Positions 486-20,522 of a DNA stretch of 20,522 nucleotides are shown here, one piece after another. How positions within the stretch are numbered: the stretch's first letter is position 1; every line of letters starts with the position of its first letter. The stretch covers positions 1-20,522 of the IMG/VR virus record IMGVR_UViG_3300008262_003058, one strand, 5' to 3'. The DNA comes from a virus. The notes under the pieces were generated by a model that saw nothing but the letters and a program-made list of their open reading frames with translations, ran no database searches and was not told where the DNA came from. The translations under genes and the position numbers were made by a program.

Positions 486-511
486 TGTTATTTTTTTTGT
501 TTTGTTTGTTA

Positions 512-1624: not shown

Positions 1625-1629
1625 TTTTT

Positions 1630-1634
1630 TCCTT
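1630..1634 (-). promoter_or_regulatory. Shine-Dalgarno of gp22
   Basis: AAGGA on the coding strand, 5 nt before the ATG at 1624. Most genes here have A/T-only leaders, so this stands out. It fits strong expression of the scaffold. Confidence 0.6.
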
Positions 1635-1649
1635 ATTATTTCGGATTTC

Positions 1650-1675
1650 TTAAGCTATTAAAATATTGAGCTTAA
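1650..1675. other. 7-bp inverted repeat in the gp22 leader
   Basis: TTAAGCT (1650-1656) and AGCTTAA (1669-1675) form a perfect inverted repeat with a 12-nt spacer, 26-51 nt in front of the gp22 start codon. It could be an RNA hairpin in the leader or a protein-binding site. I have no evidence to choose between them. Confidence 0.4.
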
Positions 1676-1738
1676 ATAGAATTTTATGATTGGCGTTTGG
1701 TCACTACACATCAGAATCGTGAGTATTCATTTACCAAT

Positions 1739-1762
1739 AAAAAACGCATATAAAAATGCGTT
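1739..1762 (-). terminator. Rho-independent terminator between the small head genes and gp22
   Basis: On the minus strand a perfect 7-bp stem AACGCAT / ATGCGTT (1756-1762 and 1743-1749) with a 6-nt loop is followed by a T run (1744-1739) and then ATT. This is the form of an intrinsic terminator for transcripts coming from the gene that ends at 1814. The flanks CAAT/ATTG could lengthen the stem in the opposite orientation, so it may act on both strands, though no plus-strand gene is visible. The rest of the 189-bp gap (1625-1813) carries a smaller inverted repeat next to gp22 and an AT-rich promoter-like motif at 1771-1782. Confidence 0.65.
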
Positions 1763-1770
1763 ATTGTAAG

Positions 1771-1782
1771 AATAAATATATG
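1771..1782 (-). promoter_or_regulatory. AT-rich promoter-like motif before gp22
   Basis: The coding strand reads CATATATTTATT, similar to the TATTTATA-type motif in front of at least five other genes in this window. It lies upstream of the hairpin at 1739-1762, so a transcript starting here would pass through that hairpin before gp22. A weak member of the motif set. Confidence 0.3.
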
Positions 1783-1813
1783 TTAATTAATAAAAACGTA
1801 ATTTTCTAAAGAA

Positions 1814-2473
1814 TTATTTACAACCACAACCTTCTTCTAACTCAGCATCAATAAAAATACTAGATACCATATCATCTAATTTATCAGCTACCTTTGTTCT
1901 TTCTTTATTCAATTTTTTAAGATTTTCAACGTGCTTTTTAGCTTGTGGTGTATTTTTTTTAGATATGTATAATTTTAATTCAGATGCTATTGCCTTATTA
2001 ATTTTTGTTAAGTCATCTTGAAGTTTTCCAATTTCACCAGGAGTTACAGCTTCAATAACTTTTCCTTCAGGTACACAATTTGGAACTTCTTTACCATTTT
2101 TGTTTTTCATTCCAACTTGCTTATATCCTTTCCAACAAGGGCCCGCTTCGTTTACTTCATTCGAATCACCATATTCGTGATAGTTAGAAGCCGCTTGAGA
2201 AATGTAGTTTTCTGAATTAGTGATGTGGTCTTGAATCCAAGCAGGAATTTGCTTTTCTTCCATTCCCATTTTTTGTTTTAATTCAGTTGCATGTTTGATA
2301 ATAGAATCTAACTGATTTTGAGCCATAGAAACTTCGTGGTCTTCAGAACCTTCTGCTTCATTTACAGGTTTGAATGCCGATGCGTATGGATTAGAATAAA
2401 CTTTACCATATTCAAATTTTTTACCACCTATATTGAAAGAACTCTTTCCAGCTAAATCAGTTAAACGAATCAT
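1814..2473 (-). CDS. Modular head-associated protein of unknown function
   Basis: A 219-aa protein, not a known enzyme. It looks like a string of short modules found in many marine T4-like phage proteins: 40-109, a helical module (HEVSMAQNQLDSIIKHATEL and following); 110-141, a two-Cys module (GPCWKGYKQVG to PNCVPEG; Cys113 and Cys133); 142-214, a charged helical region; and a terminal GCGCK. The module borders coincide with (V/L)-x-E|(A/G) tetrads at residues 37-40, 107-110, 139-142 and 212-215, which resemble prohead-protease sites. It lies between gp21 and gp22, just after a 186-aa gene (2 nt gap), and before a terminator. I infer a head-internal or core protein cut by gp21. The first residues MIRL recur in the gene at 7564-8001. 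Confidence 0.75.
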   Translation of the reverse strand: MIRLTDLAGKSSFNIGGKKFEYGKVYSNPYASAFKPVNEAEGSEDHEVSMAQNQLDSIIKHATELKQKMGMEEKQIPAWIQDHITNSENYISQAASNYHEYGDSNEVNEAGPCWKGYKQVGMKNKNGKEVPNCVPEGKVIEAVTPGEIGKLQDDLTKINKAIASELKLYISKKNTPQAKKHVENLKKLNKERTKVADKLDDMVSSIFIDAELEEGCGCK

Positions 2474-2475
2474 TC

Positions 2476-3036
2476 TTATTTATTTTTCATTGCAAGTCTT
2501 TCTCTCATTACATCAGTTGGGATGTCAGAGATTTCATAGTAACGATTTAGGATGTGACCCATATCTTCATATAAAGCGTGTAATCTTTCATCCATTGCTT
2601 TTGCTTCCACAGAGAATTTATCAAATTGTTTACCCAACTTATCCAATTCACTCATATTTCTTTTTACAGTCTGAGCATCGAACCAATCGTTAGCTTCTCT
2701 TAAAGATAATTCTTTTGCAGCTTCAACAATTGCACCCAATGTTTCTGAAACTTCAGTCATATCTGAATTACGCTTCATTTGGTCTTGGAAAGTATTGTAA
2801 GTAGATATAATTTCTAAGAAGTGTTTTTTAACTTCTAAAGATAATTTTCTATCAGGTTGAGATAAGTTTTCTTTAATAGAAAATTTACCATTAACTATCT
2901 TAACTTCGTTTATTGCTGTTTTACGAATATCATTATACCCTGCTTTGAATGTTTTATTTACACCTTTAGGTTGTTCCACATTCAACTTAAATTTGTTGTT
3001 GTGTACATAATTATATATGTCAAAATTCTTACTCAT
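2476..3036 (-). CDS. Small helical protein next to the prohead protease; unknown function
   Basis: A 186-aa protein I do not recognise beyond its position. It is predicted almost wholly alpha-helical in its C-terminal two thirds (residues 62-175), with charged, heptad-like stretches such as NMSELDKLGKQFDKFSVEA and a Met/Arg-rich end. There is no signal peptide, membrane segment or Cys. Possible gp21 sites are I-V-E-A (103-106) and L-R-E-A (112-115). It follows gp21 after a single nucleotide and precedes the next head gene by 2 nt, so it is co-translated with the prohead set. It could be a prohead core component in the role of T4 gp67 or gp68, but there is no sequence evidence for that. Confidence 0.75.
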   Translation of the reverse strand: MSKNFDIYNYVHNNKFKLNVEQPKGVNKTFKAGYNDIRKTAINEVKIVNGKFSIKENLSQPDRKLSLEVKKHFLEIISTYNTFQDQMKRNSDMTEVSETLGAIVEAAKELSLREANDWFDAQTVKRNMSELDKLGKQFDKFSVEAKAMDERLHALYEDMGHILNRYYEISDIPTDVMRERLAMKNK

Positions 3037-3037
3037 C

Positions 3038-3631
3038 TTATACTATTTCAGTTATTATTTCTCTCATTAAGTCTTGTGCCTTGCAGTATTCACCGCAAAC
3101 ATCAGTACCAATTTGTTTTAGTGGATTTACAGACTCATTCATTGGGACCATAAATGCACCATGTGTAGATGGGTTAGAAACAAAATCCCAACCAATCAAT
3201 TCAAAATCTTCTTGTACTTCTACTTTATTTCCACTCATAGGTCTAGTTGAACCCATACCTCTTGATGAAATACCCAAAAGGATACCTGCTTTTAATAATT
3301 CTTTAAGAATGTTACCAGAAGGAGTAGAAAGAATTTCAACAGTTCCACATAGGTCATCACCTTCCCACCAAATTTCTCTGATGTTGTGTGATACATTCTT
3401 TAAGTTTATTACAGTAGAATCTGGATGGTCTAATTCACCTAATGCTCTACGTTCTTTAATAAATTGAAGGTATTTTTTAGCTTCTCTTTCTAAGATAGGT
3501 TTTGGATATACTCTACCATTTTGGTTTTCGGCACCTGCTCTTTGTAGAACACCTTTAACCAATACTCTACCACCCTCATCTTCTTTGAGTTTACCTTCAA
3601 ATAATTGTGTTTCTATTAAAAGAGATTTCAT
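3038..3631 (-). CDS. 21: Prohead maturation protease, T4 gp21-like
   Basis: Serine protease that assembles in the prohead core and cleaves scaffold, internal proteins and the capsid protein. It has 197 aa, close to T4 gp21 (212). Family marks: GELDHP with His69 as probable catalytic His; the nucleophile region ILLGISSRGMGS with Ser122/Ser123; and IGWDFVSNPS (148-155), the conserved stretch after the active site. The N-terminus has L-F-E-G at residues 10-13, a plausible self-processing site. It ends two nucleotides before the next ATG and starts 2 nt after the preceding gene. All expected catalytic parts are present, so I expect it to be active. Confidence 0.93.
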   Translation of the reverse strand: MKSLLIETQLFEGKLKEDEGGRVLVKGVLQRAGAENQNGRVYPKPILEREAKKYLQFIKERRALGELDHPDSTVINLKNVSHNIREIWWEGDDLCGTVEILSTPSGNILKELLKAGILLGISSRGMGSTRPMSGNKVEVQEDFELIGWDFVSNPSTHGAFMVPMNESVNPLKQIGTDVCGEYCKAQDLMREIITEIV

Positions 3632-8067: not shown

Positions 8068-9615
8068 TTACAACCATTGAGATAAGTCCTCAATATCATC
8101 ACCAATTCTCATCTTCCAAGGGTTATCATCTCTATCCGATGGACCATAAACACCACTATATTGTTGGTTTGATGAAATACCACCCAAAGTTCTTTTTGTA
8201 AGGTCAATTCCTTCTTGTCTTAAACGAAGTGCTGTATCCCTAACCCATAATCCAATTGAAAATGCCATTGTCAAGTCATCTTCATCAATTAAACGGTTTG
8301 AACGAATTGTTACTGCTTTTTCTCTAAAATATTCATCTAACTTTGAAATAATAAGTGGACGTGTTTTAGAAGTAGTTGAAAACCCCGCCACCATCTGTCT
8401 TTCATCTGTACGATATTTGTTTCTCATTTGGTGTTCAACATCCACATACTTCAAATCTTTACTCATATAGAATAGATTTTTATATTGTCTATCTATACAC
8501 TGCTGAATACAAGCCCAACCGATGTTTGAGTTTTCTATTACTAATAAAGCATCATTATATTCGGTTGAAAGATTTACTAAGAAATTTCCAAAATCTTTTG
8601 TATCAATTTTACCTTTATATTCTGCTACTTGAGTTGCATTGATTATATCCATTACATGACATGCTGAAAAGTCAGAACCATCACCTCTAGCAACGTCCGC
8701 CACAACCATGTAAGAACCATTTGCAGTAGGATATTCCCATCTCCAAAGGTTTCCATCAAATCCAGTCTTTTCGATTGGGTCTTGACAATAACTTTCTTTA
8801 TAGAACATCAATAACTCAGGTTCAATAACTGTATCACCTGAAGATACGAAGTCACAATCACACTCTTGAGCTGCTTTTTTCTGTCCTAATAATTTTTCTT
8901 GCTCATCTCTCCAAGTCTGGTCTCTTTCAGGATGTACTGTCCAATGTAGTTTAATTGTATTAAATGGATTTGTACCATCTTCAGCACCCAACCAAGTTTT
9001 GTGAAACCAGTTACCAACACCATTTGGAGTAGAAAGTGAAATACAACTACCACCTGTTGAAAGTGTGGATTGCGCTGCTACCCAAATTTCATCAATATCA
9101 TCAATAAATGCGGCCTCATCAAATATAAGTAAAGAAAGTGCTTCAGAACGTCCTGCATCAGGTGATGATGCAATTGCTTTAATTTGAGAACCATTTTGTA
9201 AACGAAGGGAAAGTTTGTTATCTTCCAAAGAACCACCCTTTAACCAACTTGGTAGTAGTTCATGCATTACTCTCACCTTAGTTACTAAGTTCTTTGCTAC
9301 ATCTTGCTTAGTTGCAATAACCAATACGTTAAAATCTGAATTGAATATCATTTTCCACAAAGCAAATCCAGCACATAAAGTTGAGATACCAGTCTGACGA
9401 GATTTAAGAACTATATTAAAACGATTGTTCTTAAATTCAGTTAGAGTTTTTTCTTGAAATGGAAAAAGGTGAAAAGGTATCTTACCTCTCACCGGATGCT
9501 GAATCATACAATATTTTTTCATAAAGTGTATTGGGTCAGTAGCACACTTTTTGTATTCTTCTGCTATAATTTCTTTAAGACTTTTCTTTTGCGTTATACC
9601 TAAATTTTGAGCCAT
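8068..9615 (-). CDS. 17: Terminase large subunit, T4 gp17-like (ATPase and nuclease)
   Basis: DNA-packaging motor that docks on the portal, pumps DNA using ATP and cuts the concatemer. It has 515 aa. ATPase domain: P-loop K71-S-R-Q-T-G-I-S-T79, in which the usual GK lysine is Ile and a Lys stands at the start of the loop, a deviant Walker A arrangement also known in other terminases; Walker B LLIFDEAAF (Asp166, Glu167); coupling motif STPNG (195-199). RNase H-like nuclease domain: VVADVARGDGSD (Asp307), VIENSNIG (Glu361), DEDDLTMAFS (Asp446/447). I chose the ATG at 9615, one nucleotide after the previous stop; the open frame reaches a TTG at 9624, which would overlap the upstream gene. No intein was seen. 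Confidence 0.95.
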   Translation of the reverse strand: MAQNLGITQKKSLKEIIAEEYKKCATDPIHFMKKYCMIQHPVRGKIPFHLFPFQEKTLTEFKNNRFNIVLKSRQTGISTLCAGFALWKMIFNSDFNVLVIATKQDVAKNLVTKVRVMHELLPSWLKGGSLEDNKLSLRLQNGSQIKAIASSPDAGRSEALSLLIFDEAAFIDDIDEIWVAAQSTLSTGGSCISLSTPNGVGNWFHKTWLGAEDGTNPFNTIKLHWTVHPERDQTWRDEQEKLLGQKKAAQECDCDFVSSGDTVIEPELLMFYKESYCQDPIEKTGFDGNLWRWEYPTANGSYMVVADVARGDGSDFSACHVMDIINATQVAEYKGKIDTKDFGNFLVNLSTEYNDALLVIENSNIGWACIQQCIDRQYKNLFYMSKDLKYVDVEHQMRNKYRTDERQMVAGFSTTSKTRPLIISKLDEYFREKAVTIRSNRLIDEDDLTMAFSIGLWVRDTALRLRQEGIDLTKRTLGGISSNQQYSGVYGPSDRDDNPWKMRIGDDIEDLSQWL

Positions 9616-9616
9616 C

Positions 9617-10297
9617 TTAATCAATTGGTGGTTTTACCAAATCGTAGTTTTTATCTTTAAGTTTATTCCAAGCTTCATTTCTTTTCTGATAAGCTATTTC
9701 CAATTCTTCTTCAAAATTCTTAATATCAGCCAAAATTTCTGCTTTCATTTCTTCAGCATCTTTTTCCATTTTCCACTTTTCCAATTTACCATCTTCACCA
9801 ACTATTTCATATTCTTGCTTTACATCTTTATATGCTTGTTGAAATTGTGCTATAACTTCTTTACCATATGCAATCATATTTTGGAATGACCTATAATCTG
9901 TATAAGCTTCCCACAAACCATCTTGTTTAATTTTTAATTCTTTTTTTGCTAAACATTTAGCACAATATCCAGTTTTAGAAATAAGTTTTTTATCTGCTTG
10001 ACTTACTTTAATTGTATTACAATCTTTAGCAGAACAAGTATTTAATTTGTTAAGATATTCACGAACTTCCGCAAATGTATCCGAATTCTCATTTATTCTT
10101 ACTCTACCAAATTCTTTTTGTTCCCATTTTTTACCATCTGAATCTGTCCAAACTTCTCCAATTTCTCTTTTACGATTGGATTCGGTTTGCGCAAATGAAA
10201 CAAAACTTTCTTTTTCATATTCACCCCCAGTTGCAACCATATTTGCTAATTTTCTGCGGGTTGGGTGCATGTATTTTTTTTGGAATTCCTTTGACAT
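9617..10297 (-). CDS. Zinc-ribbon protein upstream of terminase; candidate small terminase subunit or packaging factor
   Basis: A 226-aa protein. The opening MSKEFQKKYMHPTRRKLANM is followed by a basic region. Cys88-x4-Cys93 and Cys112-x2-Cys115 form a probable zinc ribbon (90-118). Residues 140-215 are a long charged coiled coil. It ends two nucleotides before the gp17 start, the place where T4 has gp16, the small terminase subunit. A coiled coil suits gp16, but T4 gp16 has no zinc site, so the role is inferred from location only. An AT-rich motif identical over 15 bp to one before the 13531 gene lies 20 nt upstream of the ATG, so this gene and gp17 probably share a transcript. Confidence 0.8.
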   Translation of the reverse strand: MSKEFQKKYMHPTRRKLANMVATGGEYEKESFVSFAQTESNRKREIGEVWTDSDGKKWEQKEFGRVRINENSDTFAEVREYLNKLNTCSAKDCNTIKVSQADKKLISKTGYCAKCLAKKELKIKQDGLWEAYTDYRSFQNMIAYGKEVIAQFQQAYKDVKQEYEIVGEDGKLEKWKMEKDAEEMKAEILADIKNFEEELEIAYQKRNEAWNKLKDKNYDLVKPPID

Positions 10298-10348: not shown

Positions 10349-11038
10349 TTACTTTTCGAAGAATATACCTAAAATTTGATTTAGTGGTGCGAATGCGCCT
10401 GTAAGTTTATATGTATTCCCGCCATAAACGAATACAATACCTTCGTTTGGTACTATTTTATCAAATCCACCTAAAGCATTTAATCTTTCTAACTCCAATT
10501 TAAGTTTTTGTATTTTCTTTGGGTCACCACTTGCTTTTACTTGAGATATGGTACTTTCTAAACGAGCTACCATTTGTTTTTTAGCACTATCAGGATTTGC
10601 TGTAAGTACTGAACTCATAAAGGATAGTACATCGGCACCAACTCCTAAAAATATTTCTTCAAACTTCATTAAGTTTTGTTTAGATATTTTTTGTTGGTCT
10701 TGCTTATCGGTTTGCTCAGCCCAAGCTTTTAATTTTGGGTCTTGAATTGTATTAATACGGAATGATTTATCACCAAAAGCCCATCTCTTAACCAATCCTA
10801 TTTTTTCTTGTGTATCTAATTTCTTTGCACCTTTTTCAACAAACTTAGTCCACCAAGCTTGATGATAATCCGCCACACCATCGGAATCGGATAATCCAAA
10901 TTCAGATTGTAATTTACCAATCATAGAAATATACTTTCCTTGCAATTTAGAAAGTTTTTCTGATTTTGGAAGTTTTTGCATTGGAGGTCCTTGAATTGTA
11001 TATTTAGATTGAACGTGTCCATTTACTTGCTTAATCAT
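10349..11038 (-). CDS. C-terminal part of a frame-broken ligase-like protein
   Basis: As it stands, an ATG-started frame of 229 aa. The same frame is open further upstream to 11134 and there codes YSPLLVFHGTFEYDKDGNVI followed by GENQQAAKILAG, which looks like genuine protein, so the ATG at 11038 is probably internal. Near the C-terminus NEGIVFVYGGNTYKLTG resembles motif IV (EGxV) and motif V of the covalent nucleotidyltransferase (DNA/RNA ligase) superfamily. Motif I (KTDGQAL) lies in the gene just upstream in another frame. The two pieces together would make one ligase-like domain. No leader or Shine-Dalgarno supports independent translation. It may be a broken remnant, an assembly error, or a frameshifted product. 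Confidence 0.65.
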   Translation of the reverse strand: MIKQVNGHVQSKYTIQGPPMQKLPKSEKLSKLQGKYISMIGKLQSEFGLSDSDGVADYHQAWWTKFVEKGAKKLDTQEKIGLVKRWAFGDKSFRINTIQDPKLKAWAEQTDKQDQQKISKQNLMKFEEIFLGVGADVLSFMSSVLTANPDSAKKQMVARLESTISQVKASGDPKKIQKLKLELERLNALGGFDKIVPNEGIVFVYGGNTYKLTGAFAPLNQILGIFFEK

Positions 11039-11099
11039 ACCAGCAAGTATTTTTGCAGCCTGTTGGTTTTCTCCAATTACATTACCATCTTTATCATAT

Positions 11100-13091
11100 T
11101 CAAAAGTTCCGTGAAATACTAATAATGGTGAATATCATTTTTCTTTGTGGTTCTGATAATGCTCCTATTGCTTTTGAAAGGTCACTCATAGCGAAGTTAT
11201 AAGCATCGGTCAATCCACCTCTACCAGCAAACTTATTTGCTACTTGTCCTATTGTCATAGCACCAACTCCTTTATCTTTAAGATGAGATTTATTACGAGC
11301 TGCAACTAATCTTCCACTTACCCAACTAATTGCTAAAGCCTGGCCATCTGTTTTTTCTCTTGCCAATTCTAAATCACCATTAAGTGCTCTTACTACAATT
11401 TGTTTAAGGTCACCAAATGTTAAACCCATTTCAATATCAAATGGATGTGCCATATGTCCATATGCACCACCTTCTAATAGTAAACCCTCATTCATTGGTG
11501 TTTCAATTTTAGAAAGTTTAGTATAATAATTTGGGTCTTCGTAAAGGTGGTCTAATGCAATTTCTTTTGCTATATTAACATCAGTTGTATGTTCTCTTTC
11601 TACTGCATATCCTTTTATGAATTCTGCTTTAAGAGTTTGTGGACTCATTTTATGATGTTTAGCAATATCTTTTAGTGTCATACCTTTTGCTAATCCACCA
11701 GGTATTTGGTCTTCTTTTACAGGCTGATATTCTTCACTACCATCTTTATCTAACTTTGATTTTAATTTCTTAACATCCTTTGGATTTGGTGCACCATTAA
11801 TATATCCACCCGGTAAACTTAACCCAACACCAGCTCCACCTGGCAATCCCATTTCATCAATTATTTCATCAACTATTTTTGTTATATCATCTTCTGAAAT
11901 CAAACCCTCTTTTACAACTTTAATGTTTTGCTTACCATCCATTTCAGCTTGTTTTCTTTGTTGTTTTTCTTTTGTTGTTAATATTTCTTCCCATCCTATA
12001 TCTTTTGCAGCCTGTAATGCATCTCCTAACCAATTAGTATATGCTCTTCTTGCACTAAATTTTCCAATAGTATCCGTATTTTTCGGTTCTTGCATTATTG
12101 GAAAGTTAGTAATTTGGTTACGTGGGTCTAATTCTTTGTAATTTACTAATTCCTTTTCTTTTTTAATTTCTTCTGGTCTATCTACAACATCGTGTCCAAT
12201 TTTTTTTGCTCTTATTTTTGATTGATTATGATATTGTTTCCAAGAAGATGCAAAAGGACCCGTACCATCATCACCTTCCATTCTTTCATTTGAACCTATT
12301 TGATTTGTAGAACCTTCACTAATTTTATCTTTTTTTGGAATACGAAAAGTTACTGCTTTCTTACCATTAATTGTTGGCATACCCCATTCATCCTTACCAA
12401 TAGATTTAACAACAACTTTTTTGTTTTTGAATTTACCCATTAAGATTTGGTCACCAACCTTTACATTCAATTTAATTTCTTCATTAATACACTCTTTTAA
12501 TTTCTTTAATTTAAGAGTAATCAATTTGAATATTTGGTCATCAAATTTTGGATATGCTTTTGTAAAGTTCTTTTTTCTTTCGGCTTCAGAACCACTACTT
12601 AACCAATAACGTACATCAGTACCACTTATAGGATTTGGTTGTGCCGGAGCTGCATAAACATACCCTTTATCCAAATATCCTACTTCTAATTTACCTTTAT
12701 ATGGTTTGAAGTATTTACCACTTAGACGAGATGCATCTTTTTCACCAACCACAGTTATAAAACCAGTAGTTTTTGAATCAAATTTATTAAGTATTTCTTC
12801 TGGAGCGTATGGGTTTTTGATTTGTACTATCTTATTTGAAGGAATACCAAACATCTTTTGCATGATTGTTTTCTTTTCCTTAAACCCAAATGGAGATTTT
12901 TTATTATCGGTTACATCGGAAGTTCCTATATAAACACTATCTTTTCCGAATTTTTTAACCAAATGGTCATACGTTGCGTAGTGACCCTTATGAAAAGGTT
13001 GAAAGCGGCCTGAATAGACAACAACTACTTTGTCTATCTTAGCCGCTTCTCCCAATATACTTTCTACTAAAAATTTTGTTAATCCCTTCAT
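11100..13091 (-). CDS. Multidomain protein: packaging-type N-terminus, NMNAT-like nucleotidyltransferase, DUF5661-like and ligase-like domains (frame broken near 11130)
   Basis: A 663-aa product. Residues 1-15 (MKGLTKFLVESILGE, then Ala) resemble the short capsid-targeting peptides of T4 internal head proteins (MKTYQEFIxEA type) with an L-x-E|A cut site. 20-195: nucleotidyltransferase of the NMNAT/cytidylyltransferase fold, with GRFQPFHKGH (28-37) and ISGTDVRYWL (155-164). 207-255: SH3/KOW-like module (VGDQILMGKF to MPTINGKK). 463-530: DUF5661-like (EHTTDVNIAKEIALDHLYED). From 541: ligase-like domain GGAYGHMAHPFD, with motif I K580-T-D-G-Q-A-L and GRLVAARNKSHLK (593-605); L-L-E-G at 538-541 could release it. 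The frame then runs into a stop at 11100 just where the sequence continues in another frame. Probably a head-packaged enzyme; biochemical substrates are unknown. Confidence 0.75.
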   Translation of the reverse strand: MKGLTKFLVESILGEAAKIDKVVVVYSGRFQPFHKGHYATYDHLVKKFGKDSVYIGTSDVTDNKKSPFGFKEKKTIMQKMFGIPSNKIVQIKNPYAPEEILNKFDSKTTGFITVVGEKDASRLSGKYFKPYKGKLEVGYLDKGYVYAAPAQPNPISGTDVRYWLSSGSEAERKKNFTKAYPKFDDQIFKLITLKLKKLKECINEEIKLNVKVGDQILMGKFKNKKVVVKSIGKDEWGMPTINGKKAVTFRIPKKDKISEGSTNQIGSNERMEGDDGTGPFASSWKQYHNQSKIRAKKIGHDVVDRPEEIKKEKELVNYKELDPRNQITNFPIMQEPKNTDTIGKFSARRAYTNWLGDALQAAKDIGWEEILTTKEKQQRKQAEMDGKQNIKVVKEGLISEDDITKIVDEIIDEMGLPGGAGVGLSLPGGYINGAPNPKDVKKLKSKLDKDGSEEYQPVKEDQIPGGLAKGMTLKDIAKHHKMSPQTLKAEFIKGYAVEREHTTDVNIAKEIALDHLYEDPNYYTKLSKIETPMNEGLLLEGGAYGHMAHPFDIEMGLTFGDLKQIVVRALNGDLELAREKTDGQALAISWVSGRLVAARNKSHLKDKGVGAMTIGQVANKFAGRGGLTDAYNFAMSDLSKAIGALSEPQRKMIFTIISISRNF

Positions 13092-13120: not shown

Positions 13121-13531
13121 TTATTGGTTTACAATTTTTGGAGCTTCATCACCAGCAACATTTAGTTGTTGTTCTTGCTGTTGTGATTGCTGTAATTGCT
13201 GTTTTCTTGTAGGTGCTCCAGGTTGATACGTTACTGTACCATCTTGGATATTAATTCTTGCTTGTGGATATTTCTCATCAACTTCTTCACCTATTTCATT
13301 TAATCTAAGTGTAGTTGATTTGAATTCTTCTTCAGCTAATTTTATTGTATTTTCAATTCTTTCCAACTCATCAATAAGTTCTTTTTTTCTCAAATATAAA
13401 GTTCCTACATTCAATACAATATTGCTGCTTTTGTTGTTAAGATTTCTAATACTTTCCAACACACTCTCATCTAACTTTACAGTTTCAACCTGAATTGAGT
13501 TTTTTACAGGTACTTTGTCTAATTCTGCCAT
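13121..13531 (-). CDS. Coiled-coil protein A, paralogue of the 18066-18347 gene; unknown function
   Basis: A 136-aa protein without recognised function. Residues 20-95 form a long coiled coil (LYLRKKELIDELERIENTIK and following), then KYPQARINIQDGTVTYQPG, then a Gln-rich tail (RKQQLQQSQQQEQQL). Residues about 22-103 align without gaps to the product of 18066-18347: YLRKKELIDELE against SLRKRDLKSELE, and EKYPQARINIQDGTVTYQ against KTYPNGEIDLVEGAVYFE. No Cys, no membrane segment. It follows the heptose kinase gene after a 43-bp gap holding an AT-rich motif, so it probably starts a new transcript. A structural or chaperone-like role is possible. Confidence 0.75.
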   Translation of the reverse strand: MAELDKVPVKNSIQVETVKLDESVLESIRNLNNKSSNIVLNVGTLYLRKKELIDELERIENTIKLAEEEFKSTTLRLNEIGEEVDEKYPQARINIQDGTVTYQPGAPTRKQQLQQSQQQEQQLNVAGDEAPKIVNQ

Positions 13532-13574: not shown

Positions 13575-14321
13575 TTATTTTCCAAACACAGAAACCCCTT
13601 TTTTCTTTACAACTTCACCTGCACAATAATTAGCCCAATTAATTGATACCCCAATATCCTCAGAATCTAAGTATCTAGCTACAAATCCAGCAACAAAAGT
13701 ATCCCCTGCTCCACTAACATCCGCATTTTCTACTTTTTCCGTTTTATATATTGTACCTTTATGAGATGCACCATTACCATCTAAAGTTGTAATAACTTTA
13801 TCCTCTAACCATTTCTTTTCTAAAATTATATCATAATTATTTTGTGCTTCAAATCGGTTAAGTTTAATAAATGTCATATCTTTACACCAATCCCCTAAAT
13901 GTTTTTTCGTATCTAAAATAACTAATTGGTGAAGTTTAGAAATCTGAGCTATATCATCTTCGGTAAGAAATCCTTTACAATAATCGGATATTACAATAGC
14001 ATGATACTCAGTAAAATTTGGTAATTGATTTATATCTATTCTGTCTACGAAATCGTTTTCATCTAATCTTAAATACAATTCATTGGTTTCTTCATCTACA
14101 TAACGGGTTTTTGTTATAGAACCGGTATCGGAATAAATATCAACATCTATACCCATTGCTGATAAATTATTTGCTGTATTTAGTGCCATACCACCATTAT
14201 AAACTTCCTTAGATGGTATAAAAATCGGTCCCTTACCCTCAGGAGATTTTCTTACCGATTTACCATACACAAATACATCGGTACAACTCTCTCCTATAAC
14301 CAATACTTTATATTTTTTCAT
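13575..14321 (-). CDS. hldA: PfkB-family sugar kinase, HldE N-domain/HldA-like (heptose 7-phosphate kinase)
   Basis: Predicted to phosphorylate D-glycero-beta-D-manno-heptose 7-phosphate at O-1, a step to ADP-heptose. It has 248 aa. Resemblances to E. coli HldE N-domain in order: VIGESCTDVFVYG (8-20), SPEGKGPIF, NGGMALNTANNLSAMG (42-57), ITKTRYV followed by LRLDEND, VISDYCKGFL, FIKLNRFEA, and the PfkB signature DVSGAGDTFVAG (201-212) with catalytic Asp207. It is about 60 residues shorter than the HldE domain; roughly 30 residues after the first sheet (around residue 68) appear to be missing. The start overlaps the adenylyltransferase gene by 14 nt. Other PfkB sugars cannot be excluded, but the neighbour makes heptose the best reading. 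Confidence 0.82.
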   Translation of the reverse strand: MKKYKVLVIGESCTDVFVYGKSVRKSPEGKGPIFIPSKEVYNGGMALNTANNLSAMGIDVDIYSDTGSITKTRYVDEETNELYLRLDENDFVDRIDINQLPNFTEYHAIVISDYCKGFLTEDDIAQISKLHQLVILDTKKHLGDWCKDMTFIKLNRFEAQNNYDIILEKKWLEDKVITTLDGNGASHKGTIYKTEKVENADVSGAGDTFVAGFVARYLDSEDIGVSINWANYCAGEVVKKKGVSVFGK

Positions 14322-14700
14322 TTTCTAAAATTTTAGTTGTACTAATACCATTAATTTTTTTGAAAAATTCAATTTTAGGAATATACTCTTTTCCAATTAT
14401 TTGTTCGTATTGGTAATCATCACCAATTATCATTATATCAGGTCTCCACTGCTTTATATGTTCTACAAGAGTTTCATCCGAATCAAATGCAACAACACTA
14501 TCAACAAATCTAATACTACGCATAAACCCCATACGGTCTTCTAAAGAATTATATGGTCTTAATTCTCCTTTTTTTTCTTTAACTCGTTCATCGGTATCAA
14601 TACCAACTCTTAAAGTTCCAAAAGAAGAAGCATATTCTAAAAGTTTTATATGCCCAATATGTAATACATCAAATGCTCCGTTTACCCAAACACGTTTCAT
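14308..14700 (-). CDS. hldC: Adenylyltransferase, HldE C-domain/HldC-like (ADP-heptose synthase)
   Basis: Predicted to join heptose 1-phosphate and ATP into ADP-D-glycero-beta-D-manno-heptose. It has 130 aa, the size of the HldE C-terminal domain. Motifs: VNGAFDVLHIGHIKLL with HIGH at 14-17, KGELRPYNSLEDRM (44-57), FVDSVVAFDSDE, IMIIGDDYQYEQIIG, and GISTTKIL near the end; these follow HldE almost in register. Glycerol-3-phosphate cytidylyltransferase is a relative, but the RPxNxLExRM and GDDY stretches and the neighbouring kinase favour heptose. Its ATG overlaps the stop of the heptosyltransferase gene (TAATG at 14698-14702). In E. coli kinase and adenylyltransferase are one protein in the opposite order; here they are split and swapped. 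Confidence 0.85.
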   Translation of the reverse strand: MKRVWVNGAFDVLHIGHIKLLEYASSFGTLRVGIDTDERVKEKKGELRPYNSLEDRMGFMRSIRFVDSVVAFDSDETLVEHIKQWRPDIMIIGDDYQYEQIIGKEYIPKIEFFKKINGISTTKILENEKI

Positions 14701-15848
14701 TATAAAAACTTTTTAAGTTCATCAATAACCATTTGACCGGTAATTAATTTTGTACATTCAAATTGTCTATCTGTTCCTTTGTGGTCTGGACACCAATTCC
14801 AATCACCAGCATCTAATCGTAATCTATTGAAGCACCCTTCGCATTTTCCTTCCGGTGCCCCTATCCTTACACAATCTTCCATCTCTGCCCATTTGTAAGA
14901 AAATCCACTTATTAAGACAGTAGGAACATTCAATGCCCAACTTAACCAACTCAATCCACTTCCAATACCAATAAATGCTTTGGATTTTTTCATTTCATCC
15001 ATAACTAATTCAATAGGTCCATTTGGATGCTTAACTATACCAGAAGGTAATTGGTTACCCATATAGTTATCACCCTCTTTTGAAAGTAATTTAACTGTAT
15101 ATCCTCTGCCATTTAACCAATCAATAACTTCTTGCCAACCAGTTGGGTTATTCCAAAACTTAGATTGTGCAGTTCCATGAATACCTATACAAACTTGCTT
15201 TAGGTCATGGTCTTCAACAACAGGTCTATTTTTTAATTTTGGTTTTACTTCTTTATATTCTAATCCTAATATATCAGAACACATTTTTTGCATAGTTTGT
15301 TCTCTGAAATTATTTGGATTTTTTACTACATTGATTGAGCTATCCTCATTATAGAATAATCCAACAGAGAACATAGCATATAAATTATTTACATTTGTAC
15401 CAGGAACAACAAATTCTATTTCAGGATAATTTTCAGCAAACATATCATTCATAAATGTTGATGCAACCATTTTACATTTGTGTTTTTTTCTAAATTCATC
15501 CACATATGGAAACCATGCTAAAGAATCTCCCAATGCTTTTGAATCTAAAGCAATATAAACTCTTTTATCAGTAGCATCAAATATATGAGTATGCCATAAA
15601 TTATTATTTTCATAAATTACAATTTTCCACTCAATATAAAATTCAATACTACATCTTGCCCAACAATTATTTTTCATTTCAGCATAATAGTACATTTTTC
15701 CTGTTCTATTATCATAAAATTCAACTTTATAATTTGCTTCCTTTGGTCCTTTAATTTCAACAAAAGGTCCTTTTACAAAATGTATATTAGGTTTATTTTG
15801 TACTTCAACTTTTGAATTAGTATTTCTTTTTAAGTTATTGTAAATCAT
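14700..15848 (-). CDS. TibC/BAHT-like protein O-heptosyltransferase (GT9-type)
   Basis: Predicted to transfer heptose from ADP-heptose to Ser/Thr of a protein. It has 382 aa. Residues 1-90: beta-rich N-terminal domain (PNIHFVKGPFVEIKG, KVEFYDNRTGKMYYYAEM), typical of the autotransporter O-heptosyltransferase (TibC) family and absent from ordinary LPS heptosyltransferases. GT9 core: YIALDSKALGDSLAWFPYVD (98-117, Asp108 a likely catalytic base), IGIHGTAQSKFWNNPTGW (221-238), IGIGSGLSWLSWALNVPTVL (293-312). The C-terminus has Cys336-x2-Cys339-x13-Cys353-x11-Cys365, in the position of the iron finger of TibC. I chose ATG 15848, coupled to the previous stop (TAATG); a TTG at 15857 is less likely. 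ADP-heptose-making genes follow directly. Confidence 0.82.
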   Translation of the reverse strand: MIYNNLKRNTNSKVEVQNKPNIHFVKGPFVEIKGPKEANYKVEFYDNRTGKMYYYAEMKNNCWARCSIEFYIEWKIVIYENNNLWHTHIFDATDKRVYIALDSKALGDSLAWFPYVDEFRKKHKCKMVASTFMNDMFAENYPEIEFVVPGTNVNNLYAMFSVGLFYNEDSSINVVKNPNNFREQTMQKMCSDILGLEYKEVKPKLKNRPVVEDHDLKQVCIGIHGTAQSKFWNNPTGWQEVIDWLNGRGYTVKLLSKEGDNYMGNQLPSGIVKHPNGPIELVMDEMKKSKAFIGIGSGLSWLSWALNVPTVLISGFSYKWAEMEDCVRIGAPEGKCEGCFNRLRLDAGDWNWCPDHKGTDRQFECTKLITGQMVIDELKKFL

Positions 15849-18022
15849 TAACTCCAAGTTTTAATTGTTTCATCTAATAAAGAATATCCTTCTGCTTGCT
15901 TTGAATATACTTTGTTTGTAGTATATCTTGGTTTTGGGTGGTGATAAAAAACGTGATTATACCAAAGGTCACCAACATCCCATGTACAATCTTCTATTCT
16001 ATCCAACCACCATTGTTTAGTTCTATTTGGTATTAAATAACAATGTGCTAAATCCTGATTTGAACCGGTTCTGCTAAACAAATTATCAATACCATGTCTT
16101 TCTCTTGATGGATTATTCGCAAAAGATATAAAATAAACATCATCTCTTTCTGATAAGAAACATGCTCTATTTACAATTTCAACAAATTCTTCTAATCCAG
16201 TATAAATGAAAGCATCTGCTTCAAACACCAAAGTATAATCATATTCATCGTTCATTGTTTCTAAAGCTGCTCTATGTGCTAAATAACATCCATAATGTCT
16301 ACCAGTTATCCATCCTAACCCAGCACCAGGATACAATTCACCTGGCTTATTATCTTTACTAATGTGTTCTGGCCTACGGCAATGTTCAGCTGGTGGTATT
16401 CCTTCATAAACTTTATTTATGATTGGTTGGTAGTTCATCCCATACCTTTGTAATTGCCTAATTGATTGAATAGAAACTCTTTCTCTCATATCATCAGGCC
16501 TAGTTAATAAATGTTTTACTTGTATTTTTGGTTTTTTACGAATGAATGAACGAAATCCTTTTTGAAACTGTCCATAAAAATACTCATCAGCTGCTTGTGT
16601 AACACCATGAAATACTCCATAGTCATCTCCGCTAATATATCCGCCAGGTTTTACTTTATTATACCAAACTTTAATATCATCCATTAATGCTTCATATGAA
16701 TGACCCGCATCTATCATTATAAAATCAATACTTTCATTTGTAAATTGATTGGATGCATTTTTAGATGTATCTTTAATCATTTCAAATGTTCCATAATTAT
16801 TTGAATGTACAGTGTTATCTATAAATTCATAAAAAATATCACCATTAAAAGTGTTTACTATATTTTGATGCAATTCTTCATCATCAGTTCCTTTCCACGT
16901 ATCAATTGTTGTAAAGTTAATGTTCTTTTTAGATTCTCTGATTTTAGTTGCTAAATGATTTGTTGATTTGCCAAACCAAGCACCAACCTCAACAAATGTA
17001 GCATCATATGGAGCGGATTCTACAATTTCATTGTATAATTCTTCATAAGCAAACCAACCCGGTATTTCATTGAATTCAGGTTTTAATTTTTCTAAAATAT
17101 ATCTTTTAGTTAATTTCAAATCATCATCAATATATGTTACCAATGGATTATTATCATATGTATCCAAATAAGTATGTAACCTTCGGAACATACAAGGTAG
17201 TTTATAAGATAAAGCTTCTTTGATTGATAATGGATTTAGTTCTAATTTAGAGCTAAAATAAAACATATCACACGCTGCATAAAATGTATCTACATCATTT
17301 CTTTCTCCCCATACAATACAATTCTCAGGTTTATGTTTCATTAAAGGAAGCCAATAGTGTTCAAAATTTCCAGCTTGATTTCCTACAAAATGAAATTTAA
17401 TTTTGTATTTTTCTAATTGCCTTGCTATTGCAAATATTTCAGCTTGGTTTTTACCGGGTGCAAATAATCCAACCATAAGTACATGCTTATAAGTTGAATC
17501 CAATCCAAGTTCTTTTTTTGCTTCTTCTTTATCAAACTTATATTCTTCTATTGGATATTCCCATAACATTGTTTCTACTCCCAACTCTGCTTCATCAAAT
17601 TTTTGTTTACTCCATTTTGAAACTAAAACATATCTATCGGGATGATAAATAATATCTGCTGGGTTTGTGAATGAACCATGTGTAGTTGCTACTATAAAAT
17701 ACTTTCTATTTTCAGAAAATATTTCTTCCAATATAGGAGTTGCTAAATCATATTGCGGAATCTCCTGAAAATGGATAATATCCGGTTGAAAATTTTTTAT
17801 GATTTTCAAAATATGAAATTTATCTTCACCAAGAGTATGAACCACGGCTAATTCTTTAATCCTATTTTTTTGAACAACAAAAGCATCACCACCACTATTG
17901 TTAATTTCAACAACTTCAATATCAAAATCATCAATAAAGTGCTTTACCTGCTTATAAGTGTATTGTGGTTGTCCACCAGTTGATAAATGTGGACATATGT
18001 AGAGTAACTTTTTTCTTTCCAT
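15848..18022 (-). CDS. Three-domain fusion: GT4 glycosyltransferase, SAM methyltransferase, GT25-like glycosyltransferase
   Basis: A 724-aa fusion. 1-300: GT-B fold, GT4-type, with LLYICPHLSTGGQPQY at the N-terminus, HVLMVGLFAPGKNQAE (180-195), and the donor-site E-x7-E of ELNPLSIKEALSYKLP (261-276). 325-490: class I methyltransferase of the Methyltransf_24 type, with FVEVGAWFGKST (343-354), TIDTWKG (372-378), and FIMIDAGHSYEALMDDI then KPGGYISGDDY (434-468). 525-724: GT25-like domain with GCYLAHRAALE (578-588) and acidic VFEADAF (599-605). Cytoplasmic, no membrane segment. It is first in the cassette, behind a Bacteroidetes-type promoter, and coupled to the heptosyltransferase. It probably elongates or methylates the glycan that the next enzymes start; the order of action is not deducible. 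Confidence 0.85.
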   Translation of the reverse strand: MERKKLLYICPHLSTGGQPQYTYKQVKHFIDDFDIEVVEINNSGGDAFVVQKNRIKELAVVHTLGEDKFHILKIIKNFQPDIIHFQEIPQYDLATPILEEIFSENRKYFIVATTHGSFTNPADIIYHPDRYVLVSKWSKQKFDEAELGVETMLWEYPIEEYKFDKEEAKKELGLDSTYKHVLMVGLFAPGKNQAEIFAIARQLEKYKIKFHFVGNQAGNFEHYWLPLMKHKPENCIVWGERNDVDTFYAACDMFYFSSKLELNPLSIKEALSYKLPCMFRRLHTYLDTYDNNPLVTYIDDDLKLTKRYILEKLKPEFNEIPGWFAYEELYNEIVESAPYDATFVEVGAWFGKSTNHLATKIRESKKNINFTTIDTWKGTDDEELHQNIVNTFNGDIFYEFIDNTVHSNNYGTFEMIKDTSKNASNQFTNESIDFIMIDAGHSYEALMDDIKVWYNKVKPGGYISGDDYGVFHGVTQAADEYFYGQFQKGFRSFIRKKPKIQVKHLLTRPDDMRERVSIQSIRQLQRYGMNYQPIINKVYEGIPPAEHCRRPEHISKDNKPGELYPGAGLGWITGRHYGCYLAHRAALETMNDEYDYTLVFEADAFIYTGLEEFVEIVNRACFLSERDDVYFISFANNPSRERHGIDNLFSRTGSNQDLAHCYLIPNRTKQWWLDRIEDCTWDVGDLWYNHVFYHHPKPRYTTNKVYSKQAEGYSLLDETIKTWS

Positions 18023-18065: not shown

Positions 18066-18347
18066 TTATTCTGGCGATTCAAAATACACAGCTCCTTCTA
18101 CTAAATCAATTTCTCCGTTTGGATATGTTTTTTCCAATTCTGCTAACATTGAATTTAGTTCTTTATTTTTATCATCAAACGTAGTTTGTACTGATTTTTC
18201 AACAATATCTACGTTTTCTAACTCTGATTTTAAGTCTCTTTTTCTAAGAGATAATTGACCCAATTCCATAACAATTTTTGTTAAATCGTTTTGAATTGTA
18301 CTTAATTTTTCAATTATTTCGGTTGATAATGATTCTTTCTTTTGCAT
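18066..18347 (-). CDS. Coiled-coil protein B, paralogue of the 13121-13531 gene; unknown function
   Basis: A 93-aa protein when started at the ATG at 18347 (MQKKESLSTEIIEKLSTIQ). Residues 5-70 are a coiled coil, followed by KTYPNGEIDLVEGAVYFESP. It aligns gap-free with the product of 13121-13531 through the coiled coil and the short tail but lacks the Gln-rich extension. The open frame continues upstream to 18437, but that stretch would overlap the radical SAM gene and code for the AT-rich promoter-like motif, so I reject the longer form. It sits between the radical SAM gene and the sugar cassette. Function unknown. Confidence 0.75.
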   Translation of the reverse strand: MQKKESLSTEIIEKLSTIQNDLTKIVMELGQLSLRKRDLKSELENVDIVEKSVQTTFDDKNKELNSMLAELEKTYPNGEIDLVEGAVYFESPE

Positions 18348-18358
18348 AAAACTTTTTG

Positions 18359-18372
18359 TATATAAATATATA
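18359..18372 (-). promoter_or_regulatory. AT-rich motif, putative phage promoter for coiled-coil protein B
   Basis: The coding strand reads TATATATTTATATA, 11 nt before the ATG at 18347, in the gap after the radical SAM gene. It shares TTTATATACAAAA-like surroundings with the site before the paralogue at 13531. Confidence 0.4.
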
Positions 18373-18381
18373 TATTTTAAT

Positions 18382-19410
18382 TTATTCAAAAAGCGCAGAA
18401 GCACACCCTCTACAAATGGTCTCATATGATTTTTCAACCATTTTTATGTGTTCTTCATTACCCCAAAAATCTTTTAATTGTTGTGTTTTGAAATCACCAA
18501 ATTGTACTTCCATATCATAATCATTACAACAAAGGAATACTTTACCAGCAGCATTTACATGTATCCAACCTACCGGTCTACCACCAACTTCTCTACCATT
18601 TCCACATCCTATTACTTTTTTTGTTTCATCACCTTTTTGTAAATTTCTTTTTATAGCTTCTTTATTTGTCATAATGTGGTCTAATAAACCAGCTCTATCT
18701 ATTAATGATGGAACTGGGAATACTTGTAATCCTTCAAATAATTCTCTAGCCTTATTAACTTGCTGTGCCAACTCACCAGTAATTGGGTCTAAATCCATAT
18801 CAATTGGAAATTCAGGACCTTTATCTAACCAACCACCCCTATCACTAAATGAATTATGGTTAGAACCATTTACTTGGATAGAAAATGATTTTCGTTGAAC
18901 CATATCTGGTAATTTTTCCATAGCATATTTTACATTTGATATTAATTTATCAAATTGCTTTATGTTTATCCCACTTCGTAAACTCCAAACTTCTGGTTCA
19001 AATGCTGGTATGTTTAGACATATTCCATTTACAACTCCTTTATACTTTACAATCAGGTCCACTTTTTCAGGCGTTAATGGAATACCATTTGAAAGAACCA
19101 TAAAACATAATCTATACTCTTGACATATTTTTAATAATTCTTCAAAATGTGGATACAAAAGTATTTCATTATAATGAGCTGTATAAAATCCTCCAAAATT
19201 TTTATGAACCAATCCATTTTCTTTTTCTCTTTCTTCAATTAAATTTTCAATAATTTTACGAAGAAGTTCTGGACTCATAACTTCTTTTCCATGTGTAGGG
19301 TTTCCTTTATATTTTACAGGACAAAACCAACATCTTGCATTACATACGCCATATGGGTCTAATTGCATTTGATGAATTTTGTAAGTTTCAAATTGTTCTT
19401 TTACTGTCAT
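18382..19410 (-). CDS. Radical SAM enzyme with SPASM-like C-terminus
   Basis: Generates a 5'-deoxyadenosyl radical to modify a substrate, in this family often a peptide. It has 342 aa. The cluster-binding motif Cys23-x3-Cys27-x2-Cys30 lies in DPYGVCNARCWFCPVKYKGN. The barrel continues with HKNFGGFYTAHYNEILLYP and MVLSNG. C-terminal Cys269, Cys294, Cys295, Cys333 and Cys336 (IGCGNGR, VFLCCNDYD, ICRGCA) with GDFKTQQLKDFWGN are typical of SPASM auxiliary-cluster domains. I chose ATG 19410, which overlaps the previous stop (ATGA at 19407-19410); the longer frame to 19452 begins with TTG inside the glycosyltransferase gene. The substrate is unknown; the neighbouring glycosyltransferases suggest protein or glycan modification. 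SPASM aminotransfer or dehydration chemistry cannot be predicted. Confidence 0.85.
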   Translation of the reverse strand: MTVKEQFETYKIHQMQLDPYGVCNARCWFCPVKYKGNPTHGKEVMSPELLRKIIENLIEEREKENGLVHKNFGGFYTAHYNEILLYPHFEELLKICQEYRLCFMVLSNGIPLTPEKVDLIVKYKGVVNGICLNIPAFEPEVWSLRSGINIKQFDKLISNVKYAMEKLPDMVQRKSFSIQVNGSNHNSFSDRGGWLDKGPEFPIDMDLDPITGELAQQVNKARELFEGLQVFPVPSLIDRAGLLDHIMTNKEAIKRNLQKGDETKKVIGCGNGREVGGRPVGWIHVNAAGKVFLCCNDYDMEVQFGDFKTQQLKDFWGNEEHIKMVEKSYETICRGCASALFE

Positions 19411-20351
19411 ATTAAAACTGATTTTTTTGCTGTTTTTTGTATTAGTTTCCAATATTCATACGATGTTGTACCCTCTTTTATATTAAGTTCAATATTATAA
19501 GGAAGTTTATTCATAAATTCTGATTTATAAAATAATCCTGAATTTGAATTTGTAACTCCAGCATTATGAAATATATTACAATCTTGCCATAACTTATCCG
19601 ATGATGTTCCCCAACTAAATTCTAAATTAGAATGGCATATTGTTTGATATCCCATTTTCCAAGCGTTCCACAATACAGCCCACATATCAGCACACCATAT
19701 TTGTAGTTCGTGATAAGTTGGGTCTTTTTCTTTTTTTATTTTATTTAATTCGGTAATATTAACAAATAATTTTTCACAATCATTTTCTACAATTTTCCAA
19801 AAGTTTTCTGATATTCCTTTCATTATGTATTGTGCTCCAATTCCATTCAATTCATTTTTTTCAACAACACTTTCATCAATTTCCATAATACTACACATAG
19901 CTTTTAAGATATCATCACCTTTTGATTTTATATAAGAATGAGATATATACCATCTACAATCAGAACCATACCAATTATCATCATTAATCATTTCATCTGT
20001 TATCCATTCTCTAATTGGTTTTGTGAAAGCAATATCACAATCATGATAAAAAATTACATCATTATGTATTTCTGGTCTAGCTGCCCAATGTTGTTTTAAT
20101 ATATTTGGTCTTATTGAAGATGTATATCCTTTATTTCTTCTTGTATCAGTATAAAAGAAAAATCTAACATAATTGTATTTCTCTGCTAATTTAGTCCATT
20201 GTTCAGAAACAATACCATTTTCCGCATAACAAACTATATCCATATTATTTGGATTAACGCCCATTTCAATAAAGTTGTGTATCATTACTTCAACCTGCCA
20301 AGTGTAATATGGAATTGCGGGTTGGGCACACACGAAACGTAAATTCTTCAT
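19407..20351 (-). CDS. GT-A-type glycosyltransferase-like protein
   Basis: A 314-aa protein. The opening FVCAQPAIPYYTWQVEVMIH and VIFYHDCDIAFTKPI (99-113) with Asp104-x-Asp106 form the usual Rossmann-like half and DxD metal site of GT-A transferases. NELNGIGAQYIMKGI and the later IFHNAGVTNSN (about 260-270) are compatible with acceptor-side and C-terminal His motifs in that fold. It resembles protein-directed transferases of the hydroxyproline/serine type only loosely, so donor and acceptor are unknown. No membrane segment or signal peptide. It is translationally coupled to the radical SAM gene (ATGA), so they probably act in one pathway. The 34-bp gap before it has no clear promoter. Confidence 0.75.
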   Translation of the reverse strand: MKNLRFVCAQPAIPYYTWQVEVMIHNFIEMGVNPNNMDIVCYAENGIVSEQWTKLAEKYNYVRFFFYTDTRRNKGYTSSIRPNILKQHWAARPEIHNDVIFYHDCDIAFTKPIREWITDEMINDDNWYGSDCRWYISHSYIKSKGDDILKAMCSIMEIDESVVEKNELNGIGAQYIMKGISENFWKIVENDCEKLFVNITELNKIKKEKDPTYHELQIWCADMWAVLWNAWKMGYQTICHSNLEFSWGTSSDKLWQDCNIFHNAGVTNSNSGLFYKSEFMNKLPYNIELNIKEGTTSYEYWKLIQKTAKKSVLI

Positions 20352-20385: not shown

Positions 20386-20522
20386 TTACAAACAAAAACA
20401 ATCAGGTATAGGTACATTATATACAGGTGTAGTATATCCTGGAAATGATGATGGTGTAAAACTAACTATACTATGACAATCTCCACCTACTTCAATAGTT
20501 GATGGTGGGGTTTCCCCTTCTA
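20386..20522 (-). CDS. C-terminal fragment (44 aa) of an unidentified protein; 5' part outside window
   Basis: A frame open from the right edge to a TAA at 20386-20388. The product is Pro/Thr/Ser-rich: EGETPPSTIEVGGDCHSIVS, then FTPSSFPGYTTPVYNVPIPD, ending CFCL. Such composition is common at the ends of virion surface or adhesin proteins, and Ser/Thr-rich stretches are typical glycosylation acceptors, but the piece is too short to classify. It is 34 bp upstream of the glycosyltransferase gene and probably in the same transcript. Confidence 0.55.
   Translation of the reverse strand, partial: EGETPPSTIEVGGDCHSIVSFTPSSFPGYTTPVYNVPIPDCFCL

Follow-up and report, generated by a model that had tools for sequence, protein, structure and literature searches.

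Gene content of the locus

The stretch of DNA analysed here (the window) is the 20,522-bp IMG/VR virus record IMGVR_UViG_3300008262_003058, a contig fragment. Its larger genes all lie on the minus strand, with head proteins, a protease, the portal and the large terminase encoded at the left and a cassette of glycan-type genes at the right. The large terminase subunit (8068..9624, minus strand) matches phrog_2 with 156 bits and provides a T4-like, late-gene context. The nearest terminases among isolates are those of Flavobacterium phage immuto (55.6%) and Microcystis phage Mel-JY01 (52%), so the window belongs to an uncultured T4-like phage.

Three genes at 13575-15848 form the core of the cassette. 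They are open, lie on the minus strand and overlap, with the coordinates and overlaps that the initial annotation gave. The first encodes a TibC/AAH-type O-heptosyltransferase (BAHT, 14700..15848, 382 aa). It is followed by an HldC-like heptose-1-phosphate nucleotidyltransferase (14308..14700, 130 aa), whose gene overlaps that of the BAHT by 1 nt, and by an HldA-like PfkB sugar kinase (13575..14321, 248 aa), with a 14-nt overlap with the HldC-like gene. Between the window and three relatives, dN/dS by the Nei-Gojobori method is 0.09-0.26 over these genes and 0.17-0.21 for the BAHT, rough values given the high dS. Ratios in this range indicate that the three genes are real and maintained by purifying selection.

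Two small minus-strand genes whose products are possibly coiled coils flank the cassette genes. One (13121..13531) lies directly 3' of the cassette, a place that is conserved in relatives. The other (18066..18437, start probably internal) holds the same place in most relatives, where the products are mostly 83-103 aa, and its product is weakly similar to that of 13121-13531. The window also contains two ORFs at 10349-11038 and 11100-13091. In most relatives their counterpart is a single protein of about 780-1,500 aa with a nucleotidyltransferase-like start and DUF5661, there is thus a split or frameshift in the window.

The predicted heptosyltransferase

The BAHT gene has an ATG at 15848, and a TTG start 9 nt upstream is listed by the ORF tool. 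Its product matches TIGR04414 with 275.9 bits over residues 35-380, above the curated equivalog cut-off of 200, and all 23 BAHT relatives that were scanned match this model as well. It also matches the structure of TibC (PDB 4RAP/4RB4, phmmer E=3e-55). The LPS heptosyltransferase I model (TIGR02193) gives merely 31.8 bits. The profile search thus bears out the proposal of a TibC/BAHT-type transferase and does not place it among LPS-core glycosyltransferases.

The roles of individual residues in TibC are taken from PMC4358343. The catalytic base Asp110 and the donor-site residues Thr226, Lys230 and Trp305 are all kept in the alignment with the window BAHT, and so are the four iron-finger cysteines (Cys339, Cys342, Cys358 and Cys370), whose equivalents are missing from only one of 41 aligned proteins. 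The tip of the beta-hairpin thumb aligns as a hydrophobic Tyr-Met, in place of Phe-Val in TibC. Two donor-site positions differ. Arg286, which contacts adenine and is highly conserved in the BAHT family (PMC4358343), is Val in the window protein and mostly non-Arg across its branch, and Pro300, which reads the stereochemistry at C6 (PMC4358343), is Gly. Since the TIGR04414 cut-off is passed despite the loss of Arg286, we lower the claim about the donor and leave that about the fold family. The window BAHT is a predicted O-heptosyltransferase, and its donor would be ADP-heptose.

The characterised members of this family act on host autotransporters (PMC4358343). No partner autotransporter was seen in the window or in the loci of its clade, which have fibre-like and Gly-Ser/Thr repeat genes.

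BAHT homologues are also found in two unannotated phage genomes of 636-735 kb (L049 and L050, accessions LR756501 and LR756504). Another (L060) is on a contig binned as Pacearchaeota, in the alignment it keeps the catalytic residues and has none of the four iron-finger cysteines.

Putative genes for the donor sugar

The heptose models are the best matches for both donor genes. The HldC-like protein scores 102.3 bits with TIGR02199, against 69.7 bits with the glycerol-3-phosphate cytidylyltransferase model, and it matches phrog_7878, a 'bifunctional heptose 7-phosphate kinase/heptose 1-phosphate adenyltransferase'. The HldA-like protein scores 87.4 bits with TIGR02198 and 56.9 bits with PfkB (PF00294, cut-off 25.8). 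It contains the GAGD catalytic-loop motif as DVSGAGDT, falls some 65 aa short of the model length (248 against 315 aa) and matches phrog_8133 over its full length. Neither protein reaches the equivalog cut-off of its heptose model (181.5 for TIGR02199, 345 for TIGR02198). The identification of the pair as HldC-like and HldA-like therefore holds as to best models and motifs and falls short of equivalog level.

No GmhA, GmhB or HldD was recognised within the window. A search of 15 related records, among them ones of 274 kb and 190 kb, gave no GmhA or GmhB either, so the early donor steps would come from the host, one of the sources that the initial annotation had named. In the same 15 records two epimerase-family proteins were matched, both under the HldD cut-off. 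It had also been argued that no epimerase is needed and that none is present. The second part stands for the window; the first rests on TibC, whereas AAH accepts both ADP-heptose epimers (PMC4358343) and the window protein differs at Arg286 and Pro300.

Homologous HldC-HldA pairs, at about 33-45% identity, occur in T4-like cyanophages including P-SSM2 and S-CAM3, and the HldA homologues of this group amount to 31 records, four of them marine single-cell records. A phage HldC-HldA pair is therefore not new. In P-SSM2 and S-CAM3 the pair lies between tail-fibre genes together with a NolO-like carbamoyltransferase, a GmhA-like phosphoheptose isomerase and an epimerase. None of the HldC-HldA cyanophages was among the four records listed by a search with the BAHT.

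In a distant locus (L136) a small gene at 11076-11462, which we read from its sequence as cupin-like, lies between the BAHT and HldC genes. Its size is close to that of the 'cysteine dioxygenase' gene that adjoins HldA in cyanophages.

Neighbouring glycan-type genes

The gene directly upstream of the BAHT (15848..18022, minus strand) encodes a three-domain protein, with a GT4-type glycosyltransferase (PF00534), a Methyltransf_24 domain (PF13578) and a C-terminal GT25-like domain. This last domain has no Pfam match. An AlphaFold2 model of the C-terminal 235 aa, made with 22 sequences (pLDDT 88, pTM 0.86), has COLGALT1/GLT25D1 as its top PDB matches in Foldseek (E about 1e-8, probability 1.00), with mimivirus R655 close behind. 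The model supports a GT25-like fold for this domain and does not imply a collagen acceptor.

Further upstream on the minus strand are a radical SAM/SPASM protein (18382..19410, PF04055 and PF13186), ATGA-coupled to the preceding gene, and a phrog_4417 protein (19407..20351, 205 bits), possibly a GT-A glycosyltransferase. In four relatives (L007, L035, L039 and L040) these two are fused in one protein of 665-683 aa. A frameshift was considered for the separate pair in the window and rejected, the ATGA coupling shows that the separation is a natural split. The GT-A assignment was not adopted, as the model of the phrog_4417 protein has a pLDDT of 59 and its GT-A fold matches are weak, none with E<=0.001.

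The right end of the contig cuts the gene upstream of the cassette, of which the C-terminal end is present (20386..20522, minus strand). In the relatives with the closest arrangement a Thr-rich mucin-like protein takes this place, with the giant fibre before it, a likeness that is positional only.

Conserved gene order and the giant fibre

A scan with one BAHT protein found 43 viral loci, and a profile scan found at least 595. We define the window clade as the 91 loci with at least 60% BAHT identity; many of these contigs are near-copies, so the counts below are not numbers of independent events. A quick tree of BAHT proteins mixes phage and bacterial branches and places the window within a supported phage clade.

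The GT4-methyltransferase-GT25 protein lies directly upstream of the BAHT in 73 of the 73 clade loci with enough flank. The donor genes are less constant: of 90 loci, 48 have both HldC and HldA, six have HldC alone, none has HldA alone and 36 have neither. The pair thus appears to boost the system and not to define it, and the proposal that the phage boosts or supplies the donor can be kept for the boost, the pair being only a part of the donor route. A distant branch (L136 and L139) likewise has HldC-HldA next to the BAHT, with HldA at 38-40% identity and with GSS-repeat proteins alongside.

The clade cassette lies on one strand between a giant fibre-like gene and the terminase and portal genes. 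A fibre-like ORF of 1,011-2,501 aa is found upstream of the cassette in 57 clade loci. One of these ORFs (L004) has a Peptidase_S74 chaperone domain (26.2 bits, cut-off 22) and another (L012) matches a tail-fibre PHROG. Longer contigs have baseplate-like genes and a recombination-type gene pair, both labelled from our reading of the sequence, then the fibre and then the cassette. The fibre gene of the window's own phage falls outside the window. As the cassette genes adjoin the giant tail-fibre gene in relatives, the phages of this group probably decorate their own fibres with the sugar.

The interval between fibre and cassette contains, in some relatives, Thr-rich or Pro-rich proteins, a 2OG-Fe(II) oxygenase, DUF6445 or the GT-A/radical SAM fusion. 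The Thr-rich protein (L039 4005-5453, also L035 and L040) is mucin-like, with about 30% Thr and long runs of T, and is an alternative acceptor for O-glycosylation. A Pro-rich protein with PTPAPTP repeats is found near the 2OG-Fe(II) oxygenase of the cassette in L011, L012 and L014 (for example L011 3896-7525), which suggests proline hydroxylation as a further modification of fibres.

Association with Gly-Ser/Thr-Ser repeat genes

BAHT relatives in bacteria and other phages adjoin Gly-Ser/Thr-Ser repeat genes far above chance. The retrieval of these relatives used peptides conserved in the BAHT proteins themselves and took no account of neighbouring genes. A Ser/Thr-rich Gly-X-Y run of six or more triplets is present in 17 of 19 BAHT loci of genome contigs, in 13 of them within 5 kb, and in Methylobacter and its relatives the repeat gene directly adjoins the BAHT gene. 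Such a run is also present in 14 of 22 distant BAHT phage loci, whereas random viral loci taken as a control have it in 3 of 80 cases (p=3e-9). These random loci total 733 kb and the BAHT loci 397 kb, which gives a rate ratio per base of about 9.

The association also holds when the repeats are searched for. Searches of 10 whole BAHT-bearing bacterial genomes (2.6-5.1 Mb) with a strict five-fold repeat pattern gave one or two places in most of them. By coordinates, such a place coincides with the repeat gene near the BAHT in seven of the 10 (G017, G018, G019, G020, G021, G023 and G024). Viral contigs chosen for GTSGTSGTS contain a BAHT in 16 of 50 cases and those chosen for GPQGPQGPQ in 1 of 50 (p=8e-5), the two sets being near-equal in total length (2.47 and 2.42 Mb).

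Within the clade of the window, only 22 of 57 fibres, many of the 57 being truncated at the end of the locus, have a Ser/Thr-rich Gly-X-Y run of at least five triplets. Gly-X-Y repeats as a universal acceptor in this clade are thus unsupported. Since clade fibres have short repeat runs or none, the acceptor is less certain here than in the wider family.

For that wider family we tentatively suggest, at a little short of even odds, that a large unrecognised branch of BAHTs, represented in methanotrophs, in other bacteria and in at least 595 contigs of viruses, attaches O-glycans to the collagen-like Gly-Ser/Thr-Ser repeats of phage fibres and bacterial repeat proteins, not to the beta-helices of autotransporters, and that some phages add donor genes.

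Proposed function of the cassette

We propose that this is a late-region virion-glycosylation cassette of a T4-like phage, which heptosylates the phage's own fibre or an adjoining Thr-rich protein. We give this reading a probability of about two in three. Because the cassette adjoins the fibre gene among structural genes and its enzyme family tracks Ser/Thr-rich repeat proteins, glycosylation of the phage's own fibre is the simplest reading. Protein glycosylation with either a virion or a host target had been proposed before; this is supported in outline, synteny now favours the virion and specifically the fibre, and the heptose donor stands as a candidate. Adjacency of the BAHT to fibre and repeat genes is not proof of an enzyme-substrate pairing.

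We infer the donor, the acceptor, the order of steps, late expression and the benefit of the cassette as follows. The HldA-like kinase and the HldC-like transferase, with host GmhB, would raise the supply of ADP-heptose; loci without the pair would have to draw the donor from the host. Ser/Thr residues of the phage's giant tail fibre, or of the Thr-rich product of a neighbouring gene, would then receive heptose from the BAHT, with Gly/Ser/Thr-rich segments as the probable sites. Extension or capping of the glycan may then fall to the 15848-18022 protein, with its GT4, GT25-like and methyltransferase domains. The benefit could be protection or altered adsorption, and shielding or stiffness are among the candidate effects of the sugar.

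The donor might be another activated sugar, used by an enzyme of BAHT fold and made via the HldA/HldC-like pair or by the host. The changes of Arg286 to Val and Pro300 to Gly are in keeping with this, as are the scores of HldA and HldC far under their equivalog cut-offs, the six loci with HldC and no HldA and the gene read as cupin-like between BAHT and HldC in L136. We nevertheless regard a different sugar as unlikely, because TIGR04414 is the best model for the BAHT and is matched above its cut-off, the heptose models are the best ones for HldC and HldA, and Thr226, Lys230 and Trp305 of the donor site are kept.

A somewhat less likely reading still is that the infected host, and not the virion, is the target, with a surface protein or LPS being modified by the cassette, for instance as a block to superinfection. 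The cyanophage HldC-HldA cluster, with its carbamoyltransferase, isomerase and epimerase, has been read as LPS-modifying, and a host target would agree with the autotransporter substrates of characterised BAHTs (PMC4358343). The window BAHT is however not an LPS-core glycosyltransferase. The cassette immediately follows the fibre gene on its 3' side, among structural genes, relatives of the BAHT keep company with fibre-like repeat genes, and the cyanophage clusters too lie between tail-fibre genes.

Fibre regions are insertion hot spots and a clear repeat run is present in only 22 of 57 clade fibres, but an incidental gathering of BAHT and repeat genes in variable regions, with no enzyme-substrate link, is improbable given that seven of 10 bacterial genomes with few strict repeat places have a BAHT at one, that collagen-like GPQ contigs have one in 1 of 50 and that clade synteny is fixed.

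If fibre heptosylation by the cassette is correct, it would be a phage-encoded route of protein O-heptosylation whose target, the tail fibre on which adsorption depends, is predictable. The same reading would give a function to widespread phage genes that are unnamed or misnamed, and for one branch of a glycosyltransferase family already known it proposes Gly-Ser/Thr-Ser triplets as an acceptor rule. Non-exhaustive literature searches on phage heptosylation, on heptosyltransferase with collagen-like and phage, and on Mel-JY01 found nothing relevant. BAHTs and phage HldC-HldA pairs are each known; the combined phage fibre cassette and its link to repeats were not found in the literature searched.

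Comparison with known systems

The fold of COLGALT1 (GT25) is common to the C-terminal domain of the 15848-18022 protein, at an identity of 13-16%, so that the likeness is a fold match only.

Mel-JY01 (PP395634) is a T4-like phage in which a 1227-aa protein, encoded upstream of the terminase, ends in a BAHT domain with 44% identity to that of the window. A Gly-Ser/Thr-Ser repeat ORF is nearby. Unlike the window protein, this BAHT is fused to other domains and is annotated as 'methyltransferase FkbM', and the record has no HldA match. On the plus strand, the stretch 1-3052 of the same record (L045 2-3052) is open for about 1,000 aa and rich in Gly-Ser/Thr-Ser triplets. It is annotated as two minus-strand hypothetical genes and is probably a misannotated collagen-like fibre gene.

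The cyanophage HldC-HldA pairs resemble that of the window in their position near tail-fibre genes (P-SSM2 and S-CAM3), but their companions are a carbamoyltransferase, an isomerase and an epimerase and not a BAHT. The HldE/HldA/HldC models (TIGR02198 and TIGR02199) are the best ones for the window pair, which keeps the kinase and nucleotidyltransferase motifs. It differs from those enzymes in being encoded by two small overlapping genes, with a shorter kinase, scores under both cut-offs and no GmhA or GmhB.

The closest known enzymes are TibC and AAH. The window BAHT has in common with them the TIGR04414 family, the catalytic Asp, Lys, Trp and Thr and the four-Cys iron finger. In contrast to these enzymes it is encoded by a phage, together with donor genes and a GT4-MT-GT25 partner and with no autotransporter, it has Val for Arg286 and Gly for Pro300, and its acceptor is likely to be a fibre.
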